From: Allomyces arbusculus
Lineage: Eukaryota > Blastocladiomycota > Blastocladiomycetes > Blastocladiales > Blastocladiaceae
Direction of reading: 5' to 3'
DNA length: 64,000 nt
NCBI GenBank assembly: GCA_027604705.1
Contig: JADHYV010000008.1
Coordinates: 372,001 to 436,000 of the forward strand
The position numbers and the translations under genes were made by a program. The stretch's first letter is position 1; each line of letters opens with the position of its first letter. The notes under the pieces are model-generated. The model was given only the letters and a program-made list of their open reading frames with translations, ran no database searches and had not been told where the DNA came from. Of the stretch, positions 14,781 through 42,445 are shown piece by piece.

Positions 14781-17688
<2,908 letters not shown>

Positions 17689-17845
17689 ATTGAAGTAGGG
17701 TTATTATCTTAGTGTTCGTTTGCGTGCTTGCTTGCTTTGATGGAAGAGGGGAGGGAACGTGGGCAGTTGAGGTGAAATTTGTGGTCGTGAAATGGATTTT
17801 GGACATTCAACCATTCTCCTTGCTTTTTCATTGAAAGTTTGTCGA

Positions 17846-19084
17846 TCAAACACTCTTTTTGACCGTCGCCGACACAATCACGTACCGCGCCCCCAACGCT
17901 TTCCAAAGCGCCCACCACATCCACCCGGCCACGCGCCATTTCCGCGCGCCGGGGAATGCGCACAGGTAGGTCGTGAGCCCAGGGAACACGGAATTGGTCA
18001 CGTCCTCGACCTTGATCGCCTCGAACCCGGCACGGTCCAAATGAAGGACGTAGTCGTCGATGGAACCGAGGTTGGCCACGGGGAGCGCGGGAATCCACGA
18101 AAAAAGCGTGCGTGTCGCGAACGTGGTCGGGACTATCAGGTCGGCGAGAGCGAGTCGACCCGGTCGTGCAGGCGAGGAGGACGTGAGCGCGGCGTGCGCT
18201 GCGGCGAAGAAGTGCGCGCGCGTCTGATAGTGGTCTGCGTTCGTCGCATGGAGGTTAATCTGGTGAGTGGGAAACATGCAGTGTTTAACAAAACGTACAC
18301 GCCGAGTCAATGGAGAGGACCACGTCGGGCGCCCAATCCGGATCGGGGGCGAGTGCGGGCCACGCCGCGTCGATCGTCACGGCGTCGCCCTCGGCCAAAA
18401 CGACGCGGTTCGAGAGATTGAGCGCGGCAACACGGTCGCGGGCGATGGTGGCTTGCACGGGTGACTTGGTCTATGGTGAACGGCGTTCCTCGTCAGCTCA
18501 GCGTGTGCCAGACTCACTTGTGGCAAAAAGTCGGAACGTACGAGCCCAATCACGTCGCACCCAAACTTGGTGGCGAGCAGCAAGCACTGGTCGCCGAGTC
18601 CATACCCGCAGTCTATTTAACAATAATGGATGCACGTCAAATCGGGAGAGGCCATTGATTCATACCAACTTTACGAACCCAACACACGGGTCCCGCGCTG
18701 CACGCCAGAAGCATGCGCAACGGCACAAACCATGCTCTCGCAAGCGCGCACAAATGATTGACACTCTCCACCGTTTACTGTGACCTCATTGGAAGAAATT
18801 AAGGTTGGTTCGTCGTTGTCGGGTTGAGGAACCCACAGGCCCACGTTCATGAACCCAGTCGTGCCCGCTGATAGTTCTACGTGGTCGAGTCCATAGAGAC
18901 CATCCTGAGAGCGCGTTTTTCCTTGATTTGTCGTCGATTGTGGCCAAGTTAATGCGGTATCGGTAAGTTCTGATGTTGCGGAGGGGCCATGTCTCGACGC
19001 GTAACGCGCTTGGTCACTGGCGAGCAGGCGTTGGAGTGGATGATCAAGCGCATCGTCGTGAGGCAAGAGCGCCGGGTCGGTCAT
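17846..19084 (-). CDS. Class I SAM-dependent methyltransferase (small-molecule type)
   Basis: Likely four exons. Exon 1 starts MTDPALLPHDDALDHPLQRL and runs through YGLDHVELSAGTTGFMNVGL to GTRVL; splicing to exon 2 yields VLDCGYGLGDQCLLLATKFG, the glycine-rich SAM-binding motif I. Exon 2 continues CDVIGLVRSDFLPQ. Exon 3 gives VQATIARDRVAALNL and motif II (VVLAEGDAVTID), then VVLSIDSA. The last junction creates DSAYHYQTRAHFFAAAHAAL, the motif III region typical of Methyltransf_11/cyclopropane-synthase-like enzymes. The C-terminal part ends SATVKKSV. Substrate cannot be told from sequence. An upstream ATG at 19360 is in frame, but the leader it adds looks non-coding. Exon edges were set by eye. 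Confidence 0.75.
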
Positions 19085-19743
19085 TGTGATCGTGTCTGGA
19101 TGGTGGTTGCCCTGACGATGGCGCGCACGGCATGCATTCAACCTTTGGCCGTCCAGCAGTCTTTGCGGCGGCAGCTGCCGTCTTGCAGCCGCCTCGCCAC
19201 CGGTACGCATGCAGCTGCCGTGCGCTGCCGTGTCTGCCGCGTGACGATCAACATTAACTCGTTCAGAACTTGCTGCATTCAATTGTGACCACCAAGTCGT
19301 TGGAAATGATGACAAATCAGAACAAGCAGAAACAAGGTCCCCGAGTGACATTAGCGGCATTTACTCAGCAATATTTGAGCACGAGGTGGGAAGTGGGAGA
19401 CGCGCTTTGAACACGATTGCGTCTCCTTGAGCGCCCCTGTCTTGACCACGAAAGCAACGCAAGAGGGTGCGATGAACGCAGGAGCGCGCGATGAACGCAG
19501 GAGCGCGCTGCAACGCACCCACGATCACGATGCCTTTTGAGCAACCAGTTTGATGTCGCGGCGAACGATTCTCCCTGCTCGATTCTGCATGCGAACGGCC
19601 GTAAACCCCTTTACGGAGCCCCCCACGCCTGTGCCAGATTCCAGCTGACCCGAGTACCACCTTCTAACATCAGCACTGCAACAGCTGCCGCTTCGGCCCC
19701 GTGCGACTCGACCCGCGCTCGTTTCTCCCATCTGCGCCCCGTC
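19085..19743. other. Divergent intergenic/promoter region with a 19-bp duplication
   Basis: Between the methyltransferase start and the receptor gene. It contains a perfect 19-bp direct duplication (19471-19489 and 19490-19508). No gene is seen, although the true first exon of the receptor could begin here. Confidence 0.4.
19471..19508. repeat. 19-bp perfect tandem duplication
   Basis: GATGAACGCAGGAGCGCGC occurs twice (19471-19489 and 19490-19508; the last base of the second unit continues as T after it). It lies between the methyltransferase and receptor genes. Confidence 0.85.
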
Positions 19744-22700
19744 ATGCCTGCGCCTGGCACGCACCTTCCCCCAGATCTGGACCTCGGCTGTCGTCGAACG
19801 CCCAAGTCGCGCGATAGACGATGCTGCCGGGACTGCACCGTCGTCTGCCCACGTGGTGAGCCACGACGACCGTCCTCGTGCGACACAGGCCGCTCGTTTT
19901 GGAAGCAGTCGGTCCTGGCCGTTGTCGTGGCCCTGATCTTCTCGGCCACTGTGGCGCACGGACTTCGCGTGCGCTTGGTGCTTGGGGAGGCGCCATCCAC
20001 ATGGAGTGCGTTTGTCGCCGAGTCCTTCACAATTTGTGTCAATCCGCCGACAACTGACTGGATGATCGACGTGTCTAGCCACGGTGCCGTTCCTGCGACT
20101 CGCCATTGAAGGGTGCAACAGCGTCGCGCGTGTCAACCCATCCGTGACGTGCGGCGCGACCTACGTCGACTTGTCATCAGGCAACACAGCGACGATTGAG
20201 AACGGGATTAACAATGTCGTGGCGACCAGTATGTCTAGGCGTCTCTAATCGCTTTCGCTCGCGCTCTCGCATCACCTAATCGAATCACGTATGCGTCGCG
20301 TTTCTAGCCGGTGACGATGTGTTCTTTACCACGTCGTTCCTGAGCACCGACGCCATGGAGCGGGCAGCGCTGGCCAACCCAACCAAGACCTTTGTCCTGA
20401 TCGACTCGGTTCCCTCCAAGACGTACCCGAACATGGCTGGTGCGGGCTCTCCACCCGGTGTCCACTCAGTCTGGTCCGTTGAAGTTTCTCACGTTGGGCG
20501 TCGTGTAGGGATCACGTTTGCCGAGGACCAAGCCGGATTTCTCGCCGGAGCTCTGGCCGCCGTATTCAGTCAAGTGAAGAAGGTTGGCGTCATTGGTGGG
20601 CTTCCGATTGCGCCGGGTGCGTTTGGCTTGTTCGTTTGTGAGAATGGTGGAGCGGGTCGCAATCAATGACTGACGATGTGCCAATAGTCAAAAAATACGT
20701 CAACGGCTACCTGAACGGCGTCTTGTCGCTGTGCCCGACGTGCGAAATCTACAACACCTACGTCGCATCGTTTTCTAACGCGACGCTCGGCCAGGCGGCT
20801 GCCAGCTCGCTCATGGCGCAAGGCGTTGACGTGATTTTCGGCGCAGGAGGTACGTTTGCCTCGAATCGCAAGCCTTATTGGTAGGTCTCGAGGACTTACC
20901 ATTGTTGCTTACATTTTCTCTGCAATAGGGGGCATGGGCTCGGCTGGTATTCTGTCGGCCGCGCAGCAGCAAACATTTGTCATTGGCGTCGACTTGGACG
21001 AGGCGCAGACCACGTTCCTCGGGCTGCAGGCCATCGACTACCTGCTCGGGTCGGCCATCAAGAACGTCGACGTGGCCGTGGCGAGTGCCATTAACAACGT
21101 TCTCGCTGGTCAATTGGGCGGGTACAATCTCGTGCTCGACTCGTCACTCAGTACGCGACCTTGCTCAAGCCTGGCCGAGTGCCGAACGCACGCAGACTGT
21201 AATCGACGCTGACCCATGACTTTCCCCCCCCCCCCCCTCGTTGATAGAGGGCGTCGGGCTCTCGGCGCTCAACTCGACCGCCTTGAAGGACTTTTCCGCG
21301 TCTGTTACGGTCTCCATCAAGACGGCCACGGATATGTGCGCGACGACGGCGTTTTACAGCCGTGCGTCGGTCCTGACCGTCATTCGCAACAACCTCGACA
21401 GCCGCATGCTCTTTACCAAGGTTTTGCCGTTGGGCGACATGGAACCGCTCACGGCCTACACGCCCAAGACGTGGTACGACGTGGCACCTTTTGGCGCGCG
21501 CAGTAAGGTGCCGAACGGCTTGCAGGGCCACTCGGCGCTCGTACTGCCCAGCAACCAGGTGCTCGTGTGGGGTGGGCAGACCGTGATTGGCGAATTCCCG
21601 CAGCACGCGAGCGTACTCGACTACGACACGTTGACCTGGCGCGCTGATACGCCTGCATGGTCGGCCCCAGTCCCACCTGGACGCATGTTCCACGCCGCCG
21701 CGGTCACACAGCGCGCCGGCGCGAGTACCATGTACATCTTTGGCGGCCAGGGCGCGAACGCAATGATCTACGCCGACACGTGGCGATACGACGTGGTGGG
21801 CAGGTCGTGGACGATGCTCACGCCAACCACGGCCCCGAGCAACCGCACCGACTCGGCGTACGCAGCGGTTGGCACCACCCTCTACCTGTTCGGCGGCCAG
21901 TCGCCGTCGGGCGAAGTGCTGTCGGATCTGTGGGAGCTTGACCTGGCGACCGAGCAGTGGACGCAAGTGATGGCTTTCGGCGCCCCACCGGGCGCGCGAC
22001 GGCACGCGGCCATGACGACTGTGAATGGGACCAAGCTCGCGCTTTTCGGTGGGACAGACGGCGACCGCAACCCGACGTCGAAACTGCACGTCCTCGACAC
22101 GACGACGCGCACCTGGACGCAGATCTCTCCAGGTGGGGATGTCGCGCCGCCCGCTGCCGAGCGCGTCGGTGCCGTGACTTTAGACGACAAGCGCGTTCTT
22201 TACACAGGCGGCGTCGGTGCCGGCGGCAGTCTCAACTCGACGTGGGTTTGGAAGATGCACACAAACCAGTGGGTCGTGGCCAACCAGGACGCTGGGTACG
22301 GGCCGTTGCCAGCAGGTCTGCACTCGCATGCCATGGTCGTCTTCAACCAGTCGGCGTCACCGACCGCGTGCCAGTCGCAGACGGTGCCCGGGTACTCGAT
22401 TTGCACGCCGGCGACGCTTCCCGTTGTGCTTGCGATCAGTGGGGTCGCGTCAAACCCGGGCGGTGGGGTGCTCGTGTCATTCGCGAGCGCCGAGCCGCCG
22501 TTGCCGGCTCCAGGCGTGATTGACCAAGGGGTCAAGATTGCGGTGACGGCCATCAACGTGGTCGGGCTCGTGGGCGTGCTCGGAATCATGGGCGTGCTGC
22601 TCACGCACCGCAGCCACAAGGTCGTCAAGGCGAGCAACTGGAAGTACGGCATCGTGATCTTGCTCGGGTCAATTGTGATTTCTCTCGGCATCATTGCCAC

Positions 22701-23657
22701 GTCATGGGTAACCGACTCGCGCCAAGGGGTCATGGTCGTGGCCTACATGATCTCGAGTGGGTTCGACTTGATCTTCTCGGCACTCGTCGTCAAGACAAAC
22801 ATGATCTATTCGTGCGTATCGCGATTCTCTTCCCGCGACAGATGAAGTAGCGACTAACCGAACAGACACGTTGCATCTGTAGCATTTTCACAGCGCAGAA
22901 AACGTTCAAGCCGAGCAAGTGGCAAAACTACGGCTTCATTGTCCTGATGCAAATCGTGCAGTTCGTCATCGTGGGTCTGTGGTTCGTCTTTGACTCGAAC
23001 CCGACACGCACGATCTCGCTCGGCGGTGTCTCGTGGGTCGTGCGCACCGTCAATGTCAACTGGGTCGTGTTCGCCACGATCCCGATCGCCGGGCTCACGA
23101 TTGCCGGCCTGGTCCTGTCCTTCAAGACGCGTAATGTGACGAGCCGGTTCAACGAAGGTGCGCACATTGCGACTGCCATGTACCTGTTTGCCTTTTCGCT
23201 CGTCGTCGTGGCACCTGTCGCGCTCGTCCTCGACTCGCCGTTCGTCGTCTACATCATCACGTCATTGCTCATCACGCTTACAAACTTTGGCGTGATCGGC
23301 ATCTACTACGGCCCCAAACTCGTCGCCATCTTTGTGCCACCGCCCGAGCCTGTCCTGACCGGGAGCGTCACGGCGTCGGCGACGGGGACCGACACGACCG
23401 ACTCGGCCGATTCCAGCAGTGGATCCGCGAACGTGTTGCGGTGCAAGTTCTGCAAGCAGCAAATTGGGACGGCGTCCGCGTCGAATTCAGGCGGTCACAC
23501 GCTGCAGCGTGCCGCGAGCGTGCAACGCAGCCCGGGGTCGATGAAGCAGCCGCTCGTCAAGAATGGGGCGTCGTCGGTGCTCGCGTCTGCACCGTCGAGT
23601 CCGGTCAAGAGTTTGGCGGGAGATAACCCGTTCAAGGATGTCAAGGGGGTTCGCTGA
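19744..23657 (+). CDS. Class C GPCR with BMP/PnrA-like ectodomain and extracellular Kelch repeats
   Basis: Predicted plasma-membrane receptor. A hydrophobic signal/anchor (SVLAVVVALIFSATVAHG) is followed by a BMP/PnrA-like substrate-binding domain assembled from about six short exons: RVRLVLGEAPSTWSAF, then NGINNVVATTGDDVFFTTSF, AGITFAEDQAGFLAGALAAV, APVKKYVNGYLNGVL, MAQGVDVIFGAGGGMGSAGI and TFVIGVDLDEAQTTF. Next come about five Kelch blades (LVWGGQ, MYIFGGQGAN, LYLFGGQSPSGEVLSDLWEL, LALFGGTDGDR, LYTGGVGAGG, with matching W-T turns). Seven transmembrane helices of the GABA-B/7tm_3 type follow, ending GVIGIYYGPKLVAIFV. The cytoplasmic tail is Ser-rich with a CKFCKQQ motif. Ligand is unknown. 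The ATG at 19744 leaves about 55 residues before the signal; an upstream exon may exist. Dictyostelium Grl receptors share BMP+7TM; the Kelch insertion is unusual. Confidence 0.88.
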
Positions 23658-24672
23658 GTAGAGACTTTTGGAGAGGAGTGTCGTCGAATCGGATCAGGAG
23701 ATGGAGCAGACTGTGCGAGGAGGGCCCGCGGGTGTAGCCCGACACGTAGTTGTAGGTAGGTCGGCGGCGGTAAAAACATTGTCGAGATAGTGTCGAATTC
23801 TCTGGAAGGCGCACGCTGAGATGCTGCGCTCCTTGGCCGATTGTTTTTAAGCGTGCTTCCCCGAAAGCTCGGAGAGCAAAAAAAACAGCATAACAAACTA
23901 GGAGAGCAATACAACAGCAAAAAAGGACTGTCCAGGCGCCAGGCCCCATTCAAGGGAAATCAGCACTGAGGTCGATCAGGTTTGCATCTGGCACCTCCTG
24001 ATCCGTAACGATCAGCTGGGCTGCTCTCCACCAATGAAAATGAGGGGTATAAATTACCACAAGAATGGGTGTGCGCACAACAGCTTTCTGCGTGCGAGGT
24101 GAGTTGCCTGTTGCGACTCAAGGCGTTGAAGCTTCATTTCGGATGGAGAAGATCTTGATCAGGTCCCGCATCGCACCGCAAGCGAGACCAGGAAGTCGAG
24201 GTCCTTGTCGTCTGGCAACTCGATGTTACCATCTTTGCTGAACACCAGCTTCTTGGACGTGCCTAAGATGATATTGCGCAGGACGAGTGTGGTGCTCAAA
24301 CGCACGACATGAATGTCAGAAACAAGGAAAGAGAGCATCACCGTGCGGTAGTTTTGGCGTTGATGCTGCTGCAAAACGATGTCTGTCCCTCTGGTGCCTC
24401 TCATATCAACTTCTCATGCGTAACCAAATTCAATAAATTGAGCTTGACCCTTTTCCCGTTTGCGAGCGTACCCAAAATTGAAAAATGAATCAATCTCAAC
24501 TAGCTGTTCATAAAGCCCCGTGCGCATCTTGTCCACCGGGCGTTTCATAGAGGCCGCGGCCGGATGTGCTCTCGTCGTTATCGCCAACACGCATGAAGCC
24601 AACTCGGTCAGACATGATGTTGAGTAATCCCATCATTGACAAATCAATTCACTTTCTATTATCACAACACCG
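23658..24672. other. Intergenic region, AT-richer, with two short unassigned ORFs
   Basis: About 1 kb after the receptor gene. Minus-strand open frames at 24159-24404 and 24414-24602 (including YEQLVEIDSFFNFGY and VVRLSTTLVLRNIILGTSKK) look less GC-biased than neighbours, but I recognise no family and cannot find a convincing splice between them. They could be a small unknown gene or decayed repeat sequence. Confidence 0.3.
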
Positions 24673-24963
24673 CTATGGCCTCCTTGATGCCGCTTGCGCC
24701 TGCGTCTGCGCCTGGAGCTCGGCAATGACGCTGCGCTCGCTCTCGAGCTGCGACTCGAGTGTTGAAACTTGGGTCTCGGCAAGCCGCCTGTCCTCGGCAA
24801 GAAGCAACTTTTCGTGCACGAGGTGCAGCGTAATCGTCGTCGTGAAGGCAATGGCAAGAACGCGGCCGACGGGGCGCGCGAGCGACTTGATGAGCGACGG
24901 GCGCGGGGCTGGGCGCGAGTCGGCCCCGGTGGACGGAATCAGCGGCGACGTGATTGGTGGCAT
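24673..24963 (-). CDS. Small single-pass membrane / coiled-coil protein, unknown function
   Basis: Single exon, 96 aa. The N-terminal third is Pro/Ser/Arg-rich; one hydrophobic segment (VGRVLAIAFTTTITLHLVHE) is followed by a heptad-like helix (LAETQVSTLESQLESERSVI, then AELQAQTQAQA). The basic, Ser/Arg-containing start and single helix would fit a small mitochondrial inner-membrane protein, but I recognise no family. Support comes from its codon pattern, clean start and stop, and position divergent to CYM1 with only about 250 bp between the ATGs. Confidence 0.55.
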   Translation of the reverse strand: MPPITSPLIPSTGADSRPAPRPSLIKSLARPVGRVLAIAFTTTITLHLVHEKLLLAEDRRLAETQVSTLESQLESERSVIAELQAQTQAQAASRRP

Positions 24964-25210
24964 GGCTGGTTGCGGTAAGTCGCGGCCGGTCGGTCGGAGA
25001 TGCTTTTGGTAGTAGGAGGGTGGTTTGCGGCGATGAAAGACGTGATTTCTGTGCGGTTGTCAAGAGCAGGTGACCGTGTTGATCAGCTTTCGCTGCCAGA
25101 CCCTCCAAACGCTGCAGCCAGCACAATACCACTTGGTGGCCACTCCACACTCATCGATCCTTGACCAAGTCGCTGCAATCAGAGCGGTAAGGCCGTTCAA
25201 GTCGCTCAAC

Positions 25211-28200
25211 ATGTGGTCATTGCTCCAGCGATCGGCACCGGCTCGTCGTGCCGCCGCCAGCACGCTCTCAACACGAGGACTGGCCACTGCGGCCAGCACA
25301 CTCGCCGTCGGGAGCAAGCACCATGGATTCGTGGTGGACAGGGTTCGCATGTGAACGACCTTTGCGGGCGCCATGATCAGAATGCCAGCAACTGACCAAT
25401 GCTGTGCAGACGACGACCATCGAGGAGCTCAAAATCAACCTGGCCGAGCTGACGCACCAAAAGACCGGTGCCAAGGTCCTGCATTTTGACCGCGATGACC
25501 CGAACAATGTCTTTGCGTATGTTGCGCTTGCCATGGTTCGGCGTGATTGAGCAGTGAACTGACTATTTTGCGCTCTTTCTCAGTGTCGGCTTCCGCACGC
25601 CCGTCACGGACAGCACGGGCCTCCCGCACATTCTCGAGCACACGACGCTGTGCGGGTCGGCCAAATACCCGGTGCGCGACCCGTTCTTCAAGATGCTGCA
25701 GCGGTCGCTGTCGACCTACATGAACGCGTGGACTGCGCACGACTACACGCTCTACCCGTTCTCGACGCAAAATCTTGCTGACCACCGCAACCTGATGAAC
25801 GTCTACCTCGATGCCGTCTTTCATCCAAAGCTGACCGCGCGCGATTTCTCGCAAGAAGGATGGCGGCTCGAGCATCAGGACCCAAAGGACCCGAGCTCGC
25901 CGCTCGTGTTCAAAGGCGTCGTCTACAACGAAATGAAGGGCGCCATGGCCGACATTCACTCACATTTCTACTTTACGCTGAGCCAGTCGCTGTTCCCAAA
26001 CTCGATCTACGCGCCCAACTCAGGCGGTGATCCGGCAGTGATCCCGAACCTCAAGCACGAGGACCTTGTTGCGTTCCATCGCCGGTATTACCGACCGGAA
26101 AATGCGCGCTTCTTTGTCTACGGGTCGGCACCTATTGACCCGACTTTGGAGCACATTGACCGCGTCATTTCGTCGGTCGAGCGCCCGCCGCTGACGGATA
26201 CCGACAGGGCGCCTGTCAATGATTTGCCGTCACTGGCTGAGCCAAAGACAGTCAAGGCAACTTGCGCTCTGGACCCGAGTACGTTCTTTGGCCGTGCCTG
26301 TGTCTCTGTGTACGTCTCTGGTTGCATTTGGACCTGACCGATCCCCTTTGTTGCTTTCCAGTGGGCGACCCGGCCAAGCAGACGCGTATGTGCATCGCGT
26401 GGGGCTGCAACGACGTGCACGATGTCTACACGACGGCCGCCATGAAGGTGCTGAGCTCGCTGCTGCTCGACGGTAGCTCGAGCCCGATGCAGCAGGCGCT
26501 CATCGACTCTGGCCTGGCGCCCGACTACTCGCCCGTGATCGGCTACGACAGCTCGCTGCGCAAGGCCTCGTTCGGGATCGGGGTGCAGGGCATTTCTGCC
26601 GAGCAAATTCCGGTCGTCGAAAAGACGATATGGGATGTGCTGAACAAGGTGGCCGAGACTGGGTTCCCCAAGGAGCGCATCGACGCGATCGTGCACCAGA
26701 CGGAACTGTCGCTGCGGCACGTGACGGCGCAGTTTGGGCTCGGTCTCCTGCAGGGCGTGAGTTCCGGCGTGTTCCAGGGCACCGATGCCGTCGAGAGTTT
26801 GCGCGTGACCGCGCACATGCGCCGGATCCACCACGAGGCCGTAAACAGCGACCTGTTCCAGCGGCTCGTGCGCACCTACTTGCTCGAGAATCAGCACCGC
26901 GTCACGCTGATCATGGAGCCCGACGCCAACCTGACGGTCAACCAGGCGACGGGCGAGGCGGGGCGGCTTGCGGAGCGCGTAGAGGCCCTGACCGACGCGG
27001 ATCGCAAGGCCATTTACGAGCGAGGGCTCGACCTCGCGGCGGCACAAAATCTCAAGGAGGATTTGTCGGTGCTGCCGTGTCTCTCGCTCGACGAAGTACC
27101 GCTCGAGACGCCGTATCACGCAATTGAGCGGCACGACCGCGCTCTTCCGCAAGTGAACGCCGCGACTGGCGCCCAGGTGTCGGCGGCGCAGCCCGTCACG
27201 TACCCGTTGGTGACGCGCACATCGGAGACGAACGGCGTGACGTACTTGCGCGCGCAAACCGCGCTCGACCTGCCCAAGGAACTTCTGCCGCTGCTGCCCC
27301 TGTTTTCTTCGGTGCGTTGGTCAGCTATTAGTCGGCGTGAAGAGTACAGAGCGTGCTCACCGGGATCATCTCCCACGAATAGGCCTTGACGTGGCAAGGT
27401 ACAAAGGACAAGACGATGGAGCAGCTGGACCAGGAAATCAAACTCTTGACAGGTGGCGTGTCCGCCTCACCACAAGGGATCGCTTCTCTTGACGGTACGT
27501 CTTTTTGATGGCCTTCAAGCCCCACATAGTGCAGCTGCTAACTGCCGTCCAATCCGCAGAGCTGCACTCGTACCGTCTCGGCCTCGGCGTGGGCGGCAGC
27601 GTCCTGACGCGTCAGGCCGAGCACCTTGCCCGGCTCATGCCAGAGCTGCTGTTTGGCACGGCGTTTGATCGCGTCGACCGGCTGCAGACGCTCGTTGCTG
27701 GCAATGTCACGTCCATGGCCAACTCGATTGTGAGCGCGGGCCACCGGTTTGCGCGCAGCCTTGCCGTGGCGCAGGTCACGCCCATGGGTGCCGTGTCCGA
27801 GTCGTGGGGCGGCATCTCGCAGCTCCGCTTCTTGCACGCGCTGCAGACTCAGAACAAGGTGGAGACGGTGGTGCCGCAGCTGGAGGTTCGTTTGCGCGTT
27901 TTGTGTGTTTCAGTGCCCGCGTCGTACGTTCTGGACTGACCCACCGCTGGTATAGGCGATTCGCGACCGCATTGCTCTCAAATCGACTCGGTTCATGGCT
28001 ACGGCCGAACCCGCCGCACAAGCCGAGAACATGGCCCATGTTGATAACATGGCACGCGAATTTGCTCGCCATTCATCGAGCAACGTGATGGCCCCCGCCG
28101 AGATCAAGGGCACGCAGCTGTTGTCGGCGACCGGGTCCAAGATCTTTGTCGCTACGCCGTTCCCTGTCCACTTTTGCGCCGCCGCCCTGCCGACGGTCCC

Positions 28201-39840: not shown

Positions 39841-42445
39841 ATAGATTCCAACAAATCAATTGTGCCCTGAACCACGACTGGCTCCAGGGCATGCTGTTGT
39901 GGGACACAGAGATGGCTTCAAGGGCAGGCTGCCAACACAAATAAGCAGAGGATAAGGGTGGGGGAGCCTTGGCTCAGCAAGAGACACAGGGTGTCCTGTT
40001 GCTTCACTGCAAGGCTAGCAGTGCACAAGTGGCCTGGAGGCAGGAGCAACCAAAATGGGATGCCAAAAATAGCTCACCTGTACCTACCCATTGACCTGTT
40101 GCAAAAGTTTCCAGGTCCATTGACCAACAATGCAGTCTGTCTTGCTCATTTCATGCAATGGCCTGGATTTTGTAATTGTGCTCAAAGTGATGTGCCAACT
40201 GGAGAAGAACAAAAATAGTGCCCACATACCTGCTCACAGAGTGGATAGCTGTTGTGTGCACAGAACCAAAGTGGATGGCATGTGTTGCACATTCTCAAAA
40301 AAGCCAGGCAAATGTGCATATTGACAATGACAAGTGAGATGCTCTGAGTGATGGGCAGAACACATTAGCAGGCGGTTCTCTTTTAATGGGGCAGAGCAGG
40401 TGGCACTTTGTGTCCAACTTCAACTCCAACAATATAGACAACCAATGTGCACTCAACTGGTAGACAACAAAACACAAAACAGAACAGACCTGAGCAACAA
40501 GGGAAAAGCATGTCAGTGGGCAGTTTTCCAGTGGGGCAGGGTAGCCAGCACAATAAGCACCCACTAGCAGGCCCACCAGCCTGTTGAACCCACTCCACAA
40601 CACAACTGCCATCACTCAGGGATACAACACAAATTAAAGCAGAGGAGCAGTAACCATATGGGTGATGTACCCACCAGCAACAGTGGTAGCCACAAGCCAA
40701 TTCTGCACACCAATAGTTGCATGAGTGACAGTTACATTTTGGATGGCAGCCCACCACTCAAAACTTTGAGCATAGACTGAGCACAGGAGCATGACAGAGT
40801 CAGCAGCATGGTCTGTGTCAGCAGCTATGACTTGGTCAGGGGGAGAGGTCAGACATGGCTGACAGCTTGCCATCATGTGCATAACCATGATTGCACATTT
40901 TTGGAGCTGGTTGATGCTGTCACAGTCATGGTGGGATATGAAGAATAGCAGTGGAAGGGGAAGGCCAATGTGCATGGTGGCACACACCAACAGTAGTGGC
41001 ACCTGACAAGGAGATGATTGTTGGCTGCTGGGAAAGGGCAGCAAACTGCTGCCTGGGAACTTGTAATAATCAAACTGGATAGAAGTGCAGCAGGTGGTGT
41101 ATATGAAGGTGAGAAAGGGTGTGGTGTCTCCAGAGAGAGAACAGTGGATCTGGGTTTGAACCAATGCCCTCAGCTCAGTGGCTTTGCATCAACAAACAGC
41201 CACTATCCACACAAGGCATTGCTTGCTAATTCCAAAACCTCTGTTGAGCACTGAGGGAGCATTCAGTAATGCCATTTGACTGGGGCCCTGCAACATAATT
41301 TTTTGCAAGTGAGTGAATGGGGACCTGGGCCCTCAGAAAGATATCCAGGGCCACATGGCAGGAATAACTGCTCCATATGGTGGACTGAAAAGAGCAGCTG
41401 GAGCCTCACTCAATTGAGTTCCATGAGGGCCAGCTTACTGTCATGGTTTTCAATTACCCAATATGGGCTGAGACACATCTACACAGTCTTTCTCTCAACT
41501 GCAATGTCTTATTAAGATCATTGTTCCAAATGAGCACCAAGCTGCCAGGTTGACTTGAGTGGTCATCAACTGTCAGCAGGTCAGTTATGGTCACACATGC
41601 ATGAGTTGCCAACCTTAGCCAATGCCTTGTTGATGTGCAACAGAACAAGTGTAAAGCCTGTATATGAACATGCAAAAGATATTCATTCTCCACTGGATAT
41701 GCATATGCAAGTCCTTTGTAGTTAGCCAACTAATGGTTAACAGACAATGCACACTCACACCTCTGCACCAAGTAGAACAGTGTGTGACCCATACTGCACC
41801 AGACCATTGCTCAATTGGCTATGACAGCAAGCAGCAACATGTCTGGCCATGTCTTCTGTCTGCTTGTGGATCTTGGCCAGCAACCATGTAAATACATGAC
41901 TGCATTCAACCATTCTATGCACAGGTGTATGCAACAGTTAGGATCAGCTTGGGACCCTATTTCTTGACACAGTCCTACACCTCCTGCATCCTAACTGTGG
42001 TATGGTCAGTGACTATGATTGTCAAGGCTTATGACAGTGAAAAGGCTCATTCAGGAACTTGATCATGCTGTGCACCTTGGTGTCCAGGATGACAACAGTC
42101 TCAAAGAATCCTGTGAATGTTCACCATGTGTCAAGATTGTGCAGCTTGCCACTTGCAAGTGGCAAGTGGCATGGCCATGTGGTCAGTTGAGGTAAGGGAC
42201 ATGGGCCCATTCATGGTGGACAACTGGGGGACAGGTCATCACAGCTTGAGGCCATCCCAGGCACACACACTCCAGGTACTGTGTTGTAAGATGCATCACC
42301 TGCACTGACTGTCAATGTGCACACCATAGAGAAGGTCAAGCATGTCAAACTGTCCACAGCCAAACTTGAAATCGCATTGCTTGTGCCAGGCATCAACATG
42401 CACAGGGTGCACAATGTGGTTGATGACATGCTCACAACCAACCAT
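39841..42445. mobile_element. CpG-depleted repeat island, probable transposon fossil
   Basis: About 2.6 kb in which CpG is nearly absent: I find one near 39875, one near 40372, then none until about 42373, whereas flanking DNA has CpG in almost every line. TpG and CpA are correspondingly abundant. GC is visibly lower than in the genes around it. No intact gene is present on either strand; open frames are short and of odd composition (rich in Cys, His, Met, Trp). This is the pattern left when a methylated repeat loses CpG by deamination. I read it as an old, heavily broken transposable element. Terminal repeats and the family could not be identified, although fragments could fit a retroelement. 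Confidence 0.7.
42148..42163. repeat. 16-bp perfect palindrome inside the island
   Basis: GCCACTTGCAAGTGGC is a perfect inverted repeat without loop, followed at once by a further AAGTGGC. It may be a remnant of an element's structure. Confidence 0.8.

Follow-up and report, generated by a model that had tools for sequence, protein, structure and literature searches.

We describe here a gene on the forward strand at positions 19744-23657 of a 64,000-nucleotide window (C8:372001-436000, in a genome of 25.9 Mb and 197 contigs, which was searched), whose predicted product of 1,124 amino acids (aa) joins a signal segment, a Bmp/PnrA-like domain, a Kelch propeller and the seven-transmembrane (7TM) core of a class C G-protein-coupled receptor (GPCR) in a single chain. 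This domain arrangement is far beyond chance; Bmp-7TM receptors are already known, and it is the Kelch insertion that seems to be new. The reading we favour, with a probability of about 0.5, is that of a class C GPCR with a PnrA/Bmp flytrap for a nucleoside-like ligand and with the Kelch propeller in the position that the cysteine-rich domain has in mGlu receptors. In class C receptors a connector relays ligand binding from the flytrap to the membrane, and the extent to which it tolerates change is of direct relevance to GPCR mechanics; here an entire propeller occupies the connector's place, and selection has maintained it in two paralogues.

The initial annotation had described one continuous gene, and the spliced model agrees with it: translation starts at the ATG at 19744, the stop codon ends at 23657 and there is no internal stop. 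The model comprises 8 exons separated by 7 introns of 69-97 bp, which were predicted from the reading frame, from splice sites and from homology to a paralogue and to PnrA and bacterial relatives (donors, in order: GTGCGT, GTATGT, GTGCGG, GTGCGT, GTACGT, GTACGC, GTGCGT). Intron 3 is backed by the paralogue and by the bacterial relatives, which read straight through as PNLAGITF, and the exon 3 boundary was set with their help. An alternative model, with the intron 1 donor GTGTCA and exon 3 without an internal intron, was rejected; its Bmp domain scored 125.2 bits versus 137.2 in the corrected model. Exon 7, which is free of stops, by itself encodes the last part of Bmp, the complete Kelch propeller and transmembrane helices (TM) 1-3, so that the link between Kelch and the 7TM core is independent of any predicted splice. 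None of the Met codons upstream of Kelch in this exon is followed by a hydrophobic segment ahead of TM1.

All three families that had been expected in the protein, PF02608, Kelch and 7tm_3, were recovered in the spliced frame by Pfam profiles above their curated cut-offs. The PnrA/BMP-like blocks recognized earlier are a real Bmp domain (PF02608, E-value 7.4e-40, aa 100-371, 137.2 bits against a cut-off of 24.1), which provides the large N-terminal periplasmic-binding-protein-like ligand domain by which class C receptors are defined and which is described as sharing a Pfam clan with ANF_receptor (PMC3251606). The Kelch part is matched by PF24681 (Kelch_KLHDC2_KLHL20_DRC7; 2.6e-73, best stretch aa 439-648, 246.4 bits against a cut-off of 50), by PF13418 (132.6 bits against 21.6) and by the ATRN-LZTR1 model, while the Kelch models PF13854 and PF25210 score below their own cut-offs. 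The 7tm_3 profile (PF00003) is matched at positions 4-251 of 251 by aa 771-1012, with an E-value of 2.4e-35 and 122.8 bits against a cut-off of 33.5.

This full-length match, together with the hydropathy profile, bears out the predicted signal segment and seven class C helices: when overlapping hydropathy segments are merged, one remains at the N-terminus (aa 52-80) and a further seven lie within aa 772-1009, the sixth and seventh running together. The intracellular loops i1, i2 and i3 contain 4, 4 and 3 Lys and Arg residues, the extracellular loops e1, e2 and e3 contain 1, 2 and 0, and this positive-inside pattern would place the Bmp and Kelch parts on the outside. Hydropathy and loop charges together give the seven-helix topology with the N-terminus outside that characterizes class C GPCRs, and the Kelch propeller is predicted to lie where the first reading had put it, between Bmp and the 7TM core and, by topology, on the extracellular side. 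Between the signal segment and TM1 there are seven cysteines, each of which (7/7) is also present in the paralogue.

The propeller had been described as having about five blades. Five Kelch repeats are indeed obvious; however, a sixth blade can be read in aa 702-764, and the propeller is presumably six-bladed, its last blade being closed by an N-terminal strand around TWYDVAPFG. The structure prediction that had been suggested for the ectodomain was run on the Kelch part alone, as a single-sequence AlphaFold model, and its low confidence (pLDDT 42.3, pTM 0.50) makes it useful only for the strand pattern and the fold class. The model contains 23 strands, grouped by eye as 4+4+4+4+4+3, and is all-beta save one three-residue helix. 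In a Foldseek search with this low-confidence model, the best 50 of 497 PDB matches (E <= 0.001) have TM-scores by query length of 0.48-0.61, and their titles name Kelch proteins, plant specifier proteins and SAKe designs, the last two of which we take to be Kelch-type propellers, with the exception of 5f72, whose title mentions antibodies only. A PDB search with the propeller sequence found LZTR1 as the best match (2.5e-28), followed by a dynein heavy chain, KLHDC3, plant specifier proteins and further Kelch proteins (best 60 of 74 distinct sequences, E <= 1e-5). A scan of genome contigs for a bacterial origin of the Kelch part returned 54 stretches that matched a pattern, of which 0/54 were confirmed.

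The ligand pocket of BmpA and its structural homologues has been described as comprising Phe27, Phe151, Phe176, Val224, Asp225 and Lys242, with Asp98 for ribose and, in BmpA, additionally Asp19 and Asp24, and N-lobe residues are reported to differ with the ligand among family members (PMC13325309). We placed the BmpA residues by motif on an alignment of trimmed sequences, mapping them through L040, one of two bacterial Bmp relatives (L039 and L040) that were confirmed among 230 candidate stretches. D170, Y221, F246, V292, D293 and K316 stand at the places of BmpA Asp98, Phe151, Phe176, Val224, Asp225 and Lys242, i.e. five of the six positions checked are identical and one is a conservative aromatic exchange, with the same letters in both paralogues. 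L039, from a Gemmatimonadetes metagenome-assembled genome, has none of the six pocket residues (0/6 identical, with Trp at the Phe176 place) at a similar best-segment identity (29%, versus 31% for L040), which argues that the survival of the pocket in our protein is not a mere by-product of homology; L039 itself, judging from these residues, probably binds a different ligand. Among solved structures the nearest relative is 6yab (7.5e-25), presumably pneumococcal PnrA; BmpD (6shu, 8.6e-18) and TmpC/PnrA (2fqw, 3.9e-14) also match. The nucleoside ligand that had been proposed for the Bmp domain thus appears plausible as far as the largely kept six positions go, but two N-lobe aspartates are lost.

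The core had been called GABA-B-type, and in this respect the initial annotation has to be corrected. In a pairwise search, made in the PDB only, the nearest neighbour is mGlu3 (6.6e-13), followed by mGlu2, mGlu5 and mGlu1, and mGlu7 and CaSR, whereas GABA-B2 reaches only 1.3e-4, and a GABA-B-type core is not supported by this search. Shared with mGlu3 in the pairwise alignment are KTN (end of TM3), FNE (i3) and PK (after TM7), which we take to be class C signature positions. On the other hand, the NCD3G cysteine-rich domain was not found among 11 families up to an E-value of 1 in the alternative gene model, nor up to 0.001 in the final models. The Kelch propeller stands where members of the mGlu/CaSR/T1R subfamily have NCD3G, and the lack of a cysteine-rich domain is the remaining GABA-B-like trait.

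A second Bmp-Kelch-7TM gene is located on the same contig, at about 307,235-311,134 on the opposite strand, approximately 81 kb away. It encodes 1,101 aa in 8 exons with the same domain order, and the phases are 0,1,1,1,1,1,1,2 in both genes. The two proteins are 78% identical over 1,092 aligned codons, and the Nei-Gojobori method gives an overall synonymous divergence (dS) of 0.64, a nonsynonymous divergence (dN) of 0.146 and a ratio of the two (omega) of 0.229. Purifying selection acts on every part of the protein, with omega below 0.4 throughout: 0.391 in the N-terminus, 0.368 in Bmp lobe 1, 0.136 in the rest of Bmp, 0.104 in Kelch, 0.191 in the 7TM core and 0.369 in the tail. Divergence is greatest in the N-terminus, Bmp lobe 1 and the tail, and since lobe 1 differs most within the ectodomain, the paralogues may recognize different ligands, possibly different nucleosides. 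When window positions 17500-27000 were compared by blastn with a 10-kb region around the paralogue, only two matches were obtained (20087-20154 and 20303-23470 in the window), both within the gene; therefore the flanks that were compared are not duplicated. Within the diverged tail, a CxxC motif (LRCKFCKQQIG, 23436-23468) is kept in the paralogue, with Y for F, and is possibly a metal or lipid-modification site, which is a guess.

In the genome as a whole, where the numbers of profile matches are counts of exon matches and thus lower bounds, 7tm_3 has at least 88 matches, which fall into 59 clusters (gap < 900 bp, one strand), Bmp has at least 3, all within the two paralogues, and PF24681 has at least 28. 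Two of these 28 Kelch matches have a 7tm_3 match on their own strand no more than 1 kb away, and they are those in the two genes described here; for the other 26 the nearest 7tm_3 match is at least 22 kb off or absent from the same contig and strand. ANF_receptor has at least 38 matches and G-alpha at least 37. Class C receptor matches are grouped on contigs C50, C88, C98, C74 and C85, and the 59 clusters found genome-wide make a large repertoire for a 26-Mb genome.

According to the mechanism we favour, a nucleoside or a ribose-bearing relative would close the Bmp flytrap at the cell surface. This movement would be transmitted by way of the linker and the last blade, either through the Kelch propeller or alongside it, to TM1 and the 7TM core, and the core would in turn activate one of the genome's G-alpha proteins. 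In a closed propeller the first and last strands are neighbours within a single blade, which allows the domain to be carried as a side module on a chain that runs on from the flytrap to the membrane; its exposed faces are probable binding sites for a protein or glycan partner, or for a second receptor subunit. Alike in lobe 2 and the propeller and unlike in lobe 1, the two paralogues may read different nucleosides. A more elaborate version, which we consider doubtful, would make the receptor a coincidence detector for zoospore settling, in which Kelch transmits in place of the cysteine-rich domain and both the small molecule in the flytrap and a partner on a surface are read.

Several other explanations have to be weighed against this reading. 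It could be argued, given that the introns are predicted, that two neighbouring genes or a mis-assembly have been mistaken for one gene and that the Kelch or Bmp part is foreign to the receptor; however, a single exon without stops covers the end of Bmp, Kelch and TM1-3, and the same order recurs in the paralogue about 81 kb off at an overall dS of 0.64 and under selection throughout, so that one exon, a second copy and selection together rule out such a two-gene or fusion artefact almost completely. A rather improbable, yet much more serious alternative is that the Bmp domain has lost nucleoside binding and serves as a dimerization scaffold, while the receptor is activated through Kelch by a protein or glycan on the surface of a host, mate or food. 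It is favoured by Kelch being the most constrained part of the ectodomain and by the loss of Asp19 and Asp24, and it has a parallel in gut-fungal class C receptors, for which non-flytrap ectodomains such as pectin-lyase folds are reported (PMC5168858). The constraint culminates in blades 5-6 and the linker, with 5/87 of the nonsynonymous differences found from Kelch to TM7 in 129/597 codons (omega 0.045, permutation P 5e-5); nevertheless, when the clustering of differences is preserved, 51/597 circular windows are as low, so that the low is not extreme and clustering explains part of it. Moreover, both paralogues largely preserve the six pocket positions.

Less probable still, in our opinion, is a receptor used mainly for the control of development or growth through a self-made ligand, as in the Dictyostelium Grl family, and not for zoospore chemotaxis. 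GrlH, which may or may not have a Bmp domain, is reportedly tied to the proliferation repressor AprA, which was counted in favour of this explanation. GrlJ is described as acting in post-aggregation development (PMC1885808). On the other hand, the 59 7tm_3 clusters look more like a repertoire for environmental sensing.

Returning to the nucleoside-sensing receptor, we note that several observations weigh against it. The BmpA residues were mapped by motif and not by structure, with Ile147 and Ala200 left out; the N-lobe residues Asp19 and Asp24 are lost, with Pro or Thr at the first place and a gap at the second; and the place of Phe27 is ambiguous, being taken by F91 in a weak alignment of 2.4 bits or by W87 in a second one, both aromatic. 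Bmp lobe 1 is the least conserved part of the ectodomain (54% identity between the paralogues), so the ligand could have drifted. N-glycosylation sequons are not enriched (6 versus 4.9 expected in the ectodomain, P 0.36; 4 versus 1.8 in Kelch, P 0.088), and as these counts are not significant, N-glycosylation was dropped as evidence of topology. The match of exons between the paralogues is partly by construction, as each of the two models was used in building the other; in the paralogue, one acceptor (AAAAG) is atypical. Finally, dS varies along the gene pair, from approximately 0.5 in the rest of Bmp, Kelch and the 7TM core to as much as 1.0 (lobe 1) and 1.2 (tail), and gene conversion may have homogenized the middle of the gene pair. 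The Bmp and Kelch pieces of the ectodomain are separable and can be tested one by one.

Table 1. Coordinates of the Bmp-Kelch-7TM receptor gene and its parts, in positions of the window.
Feature	Position	Strand	Evidence
Exon 1: start codon, basic N-terminus, hydrophobic signal segment, first Bmp strand; donor GTGCGT	19744..20005	+	
Hydrophobic signal segment, within exon 1	about 19897-19983	+	
Exon 2: Bmp lobe 1	20079..20228	+	
Exon 3: Bmp lobe 1, Asp170 at the place of ribose-binding BmpA Asp98	20308..20439	+	
Exon 4: Bmp, ITFAEDQAGFLAG motif	20509..20616	+	
Exon 5: Bmp, Tyr221 and Phe246 at the places of BmpA Phe151 and Phe176	20688..20849	+	
Exon 6: Bmp, Val292, Asp293 and Lys316 at the places of BmpA Val224, Asp225 and Lys242	20929..21150	+	
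Exon 7: Bmp end, linker, entire Kelch propeller, TM1-TM3, single open frame	21248..22811	+	
Kelch propeller, aa 413-764, read as six blades	21448..22503	+	PF24681 2.6e-73; LZTR1 2.5e-28; low-confidence model
Class C 7TM core, aa 771-1012, split by intron 22812-22882	22522..23318	+	7tm_3 2.4e-35; positive-inside
Exon 8: remainder of i2 loop, TM4-TM7, cytosolic tail, stop	22883..23657	+	
Cytosolic tail, Ser/Thr-rich	23337..23657	+	paralogue alignment; omega about 0.37

The surroundings of the gene have no evident link to the receptor: its neighbours in the window are a semialdehyde dehydrogenase-type protein (16573-17685) and exons of an M16-family metallopeptidase (25558-27386). The G+C content is 47% at 40001-42000 of the window, 56-57% in the two adjacent 2-kb windows and 56-69% elsewhere. 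As to the host, a frame on contig C7 (L037, 1243-3081) contains matches to a type 1 rhodopsin (1.1e-26) and to a guanylate cyclase domain (5.4e-21), the latter partial at its start (profile positions 59-141 of 183), so that an intron probably lies between the two; a second type 1 rhodopsin match was found on contig C15 (L038). Fusions of rhodopsin and guanylate cyclase have been reported in Blastocladiella, Allomyces and Catenaria (PMC4046227), and on the basis of this frame the host is probably a zoosporic (flagellated) blastocladiomycete.

Among the known relatives, the likeness to Dictyostelium Grl receptors, which had been noted from the beginning, is supported by the literature: GrlJ likewise has a signal sequence, a Bmp/PnrA domain and a class C 7TM core (PMC1885808), and BMP domains are reported in Grl clades 2-7 (PMC10445921). 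However, GrlJ has 783 aa (PMC1885808) compared with the 1,124 aa of our protein, and the word "kelch" does not occur in the main text of PMC10445921, nor in those of PMC3251606 and PMC12716839; likewise, the titles, abstracts and text passages of the literature matches listed showed no class C GPCR with Kelch. Two glutamate-family receptors of Allomyces macrogynus, probably of the same phylum, AMAG_08984 and AMAG_12053, are described as having a BMP domain (PMC3251606); the ectodomain types listed there do not include Kelch, but the comparison is by description only and the two may or may not be Kelch-bearing orthologues. Class C GPCRs of gut fungi are similar in that their ectodomains, pectin-lyase or SBP type II, are also non-canonical, but the domains are different ones, and neither "bmp" nor "kelch" occurs in the text seen of PMC5168858. 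In general, the ectodomains of holomycotan glutamate receptors are said to be more diverse than those of animals (PMC12716839).

With the metazoan mGlu/CaSR/T1R receptors our protein shares the succession of a flytrap, an interposed domain and a 7TM core, the last being nearest to that of mGlu3, but its flytrap matches Bmp, not ANF_receptor, and its interposed domain is Kelch. The propeller itself resembles those of the LZTR1/KLHDC type, as judged from the nearest PDB sequence, LZTR1, and from the KLHDC2/KLHL20 and ATRN-LZTR1 Pfam models. Kelch proteins of the LZTR1/KLHDC type and attractin, which bears its Kelch outside the cell, are cytosolic or single-pass, whereas here the propeller lies within the ectodomain of a GPCR. 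Finally, the bacterial nucleoside-binding lipoproteins PnrA, BmpA and BmpD have the same domain, most of whose checked pocket positions are kept in our protein, but in the latter this domain is part of a GPCR and has lost the N-lobe residues Asp19 and Asp24. If its nucleoside pocket works, a eukaryote would use a bacterial-type nucleoside-binding fold as a GPCR sensor outside the animal purinergic families.

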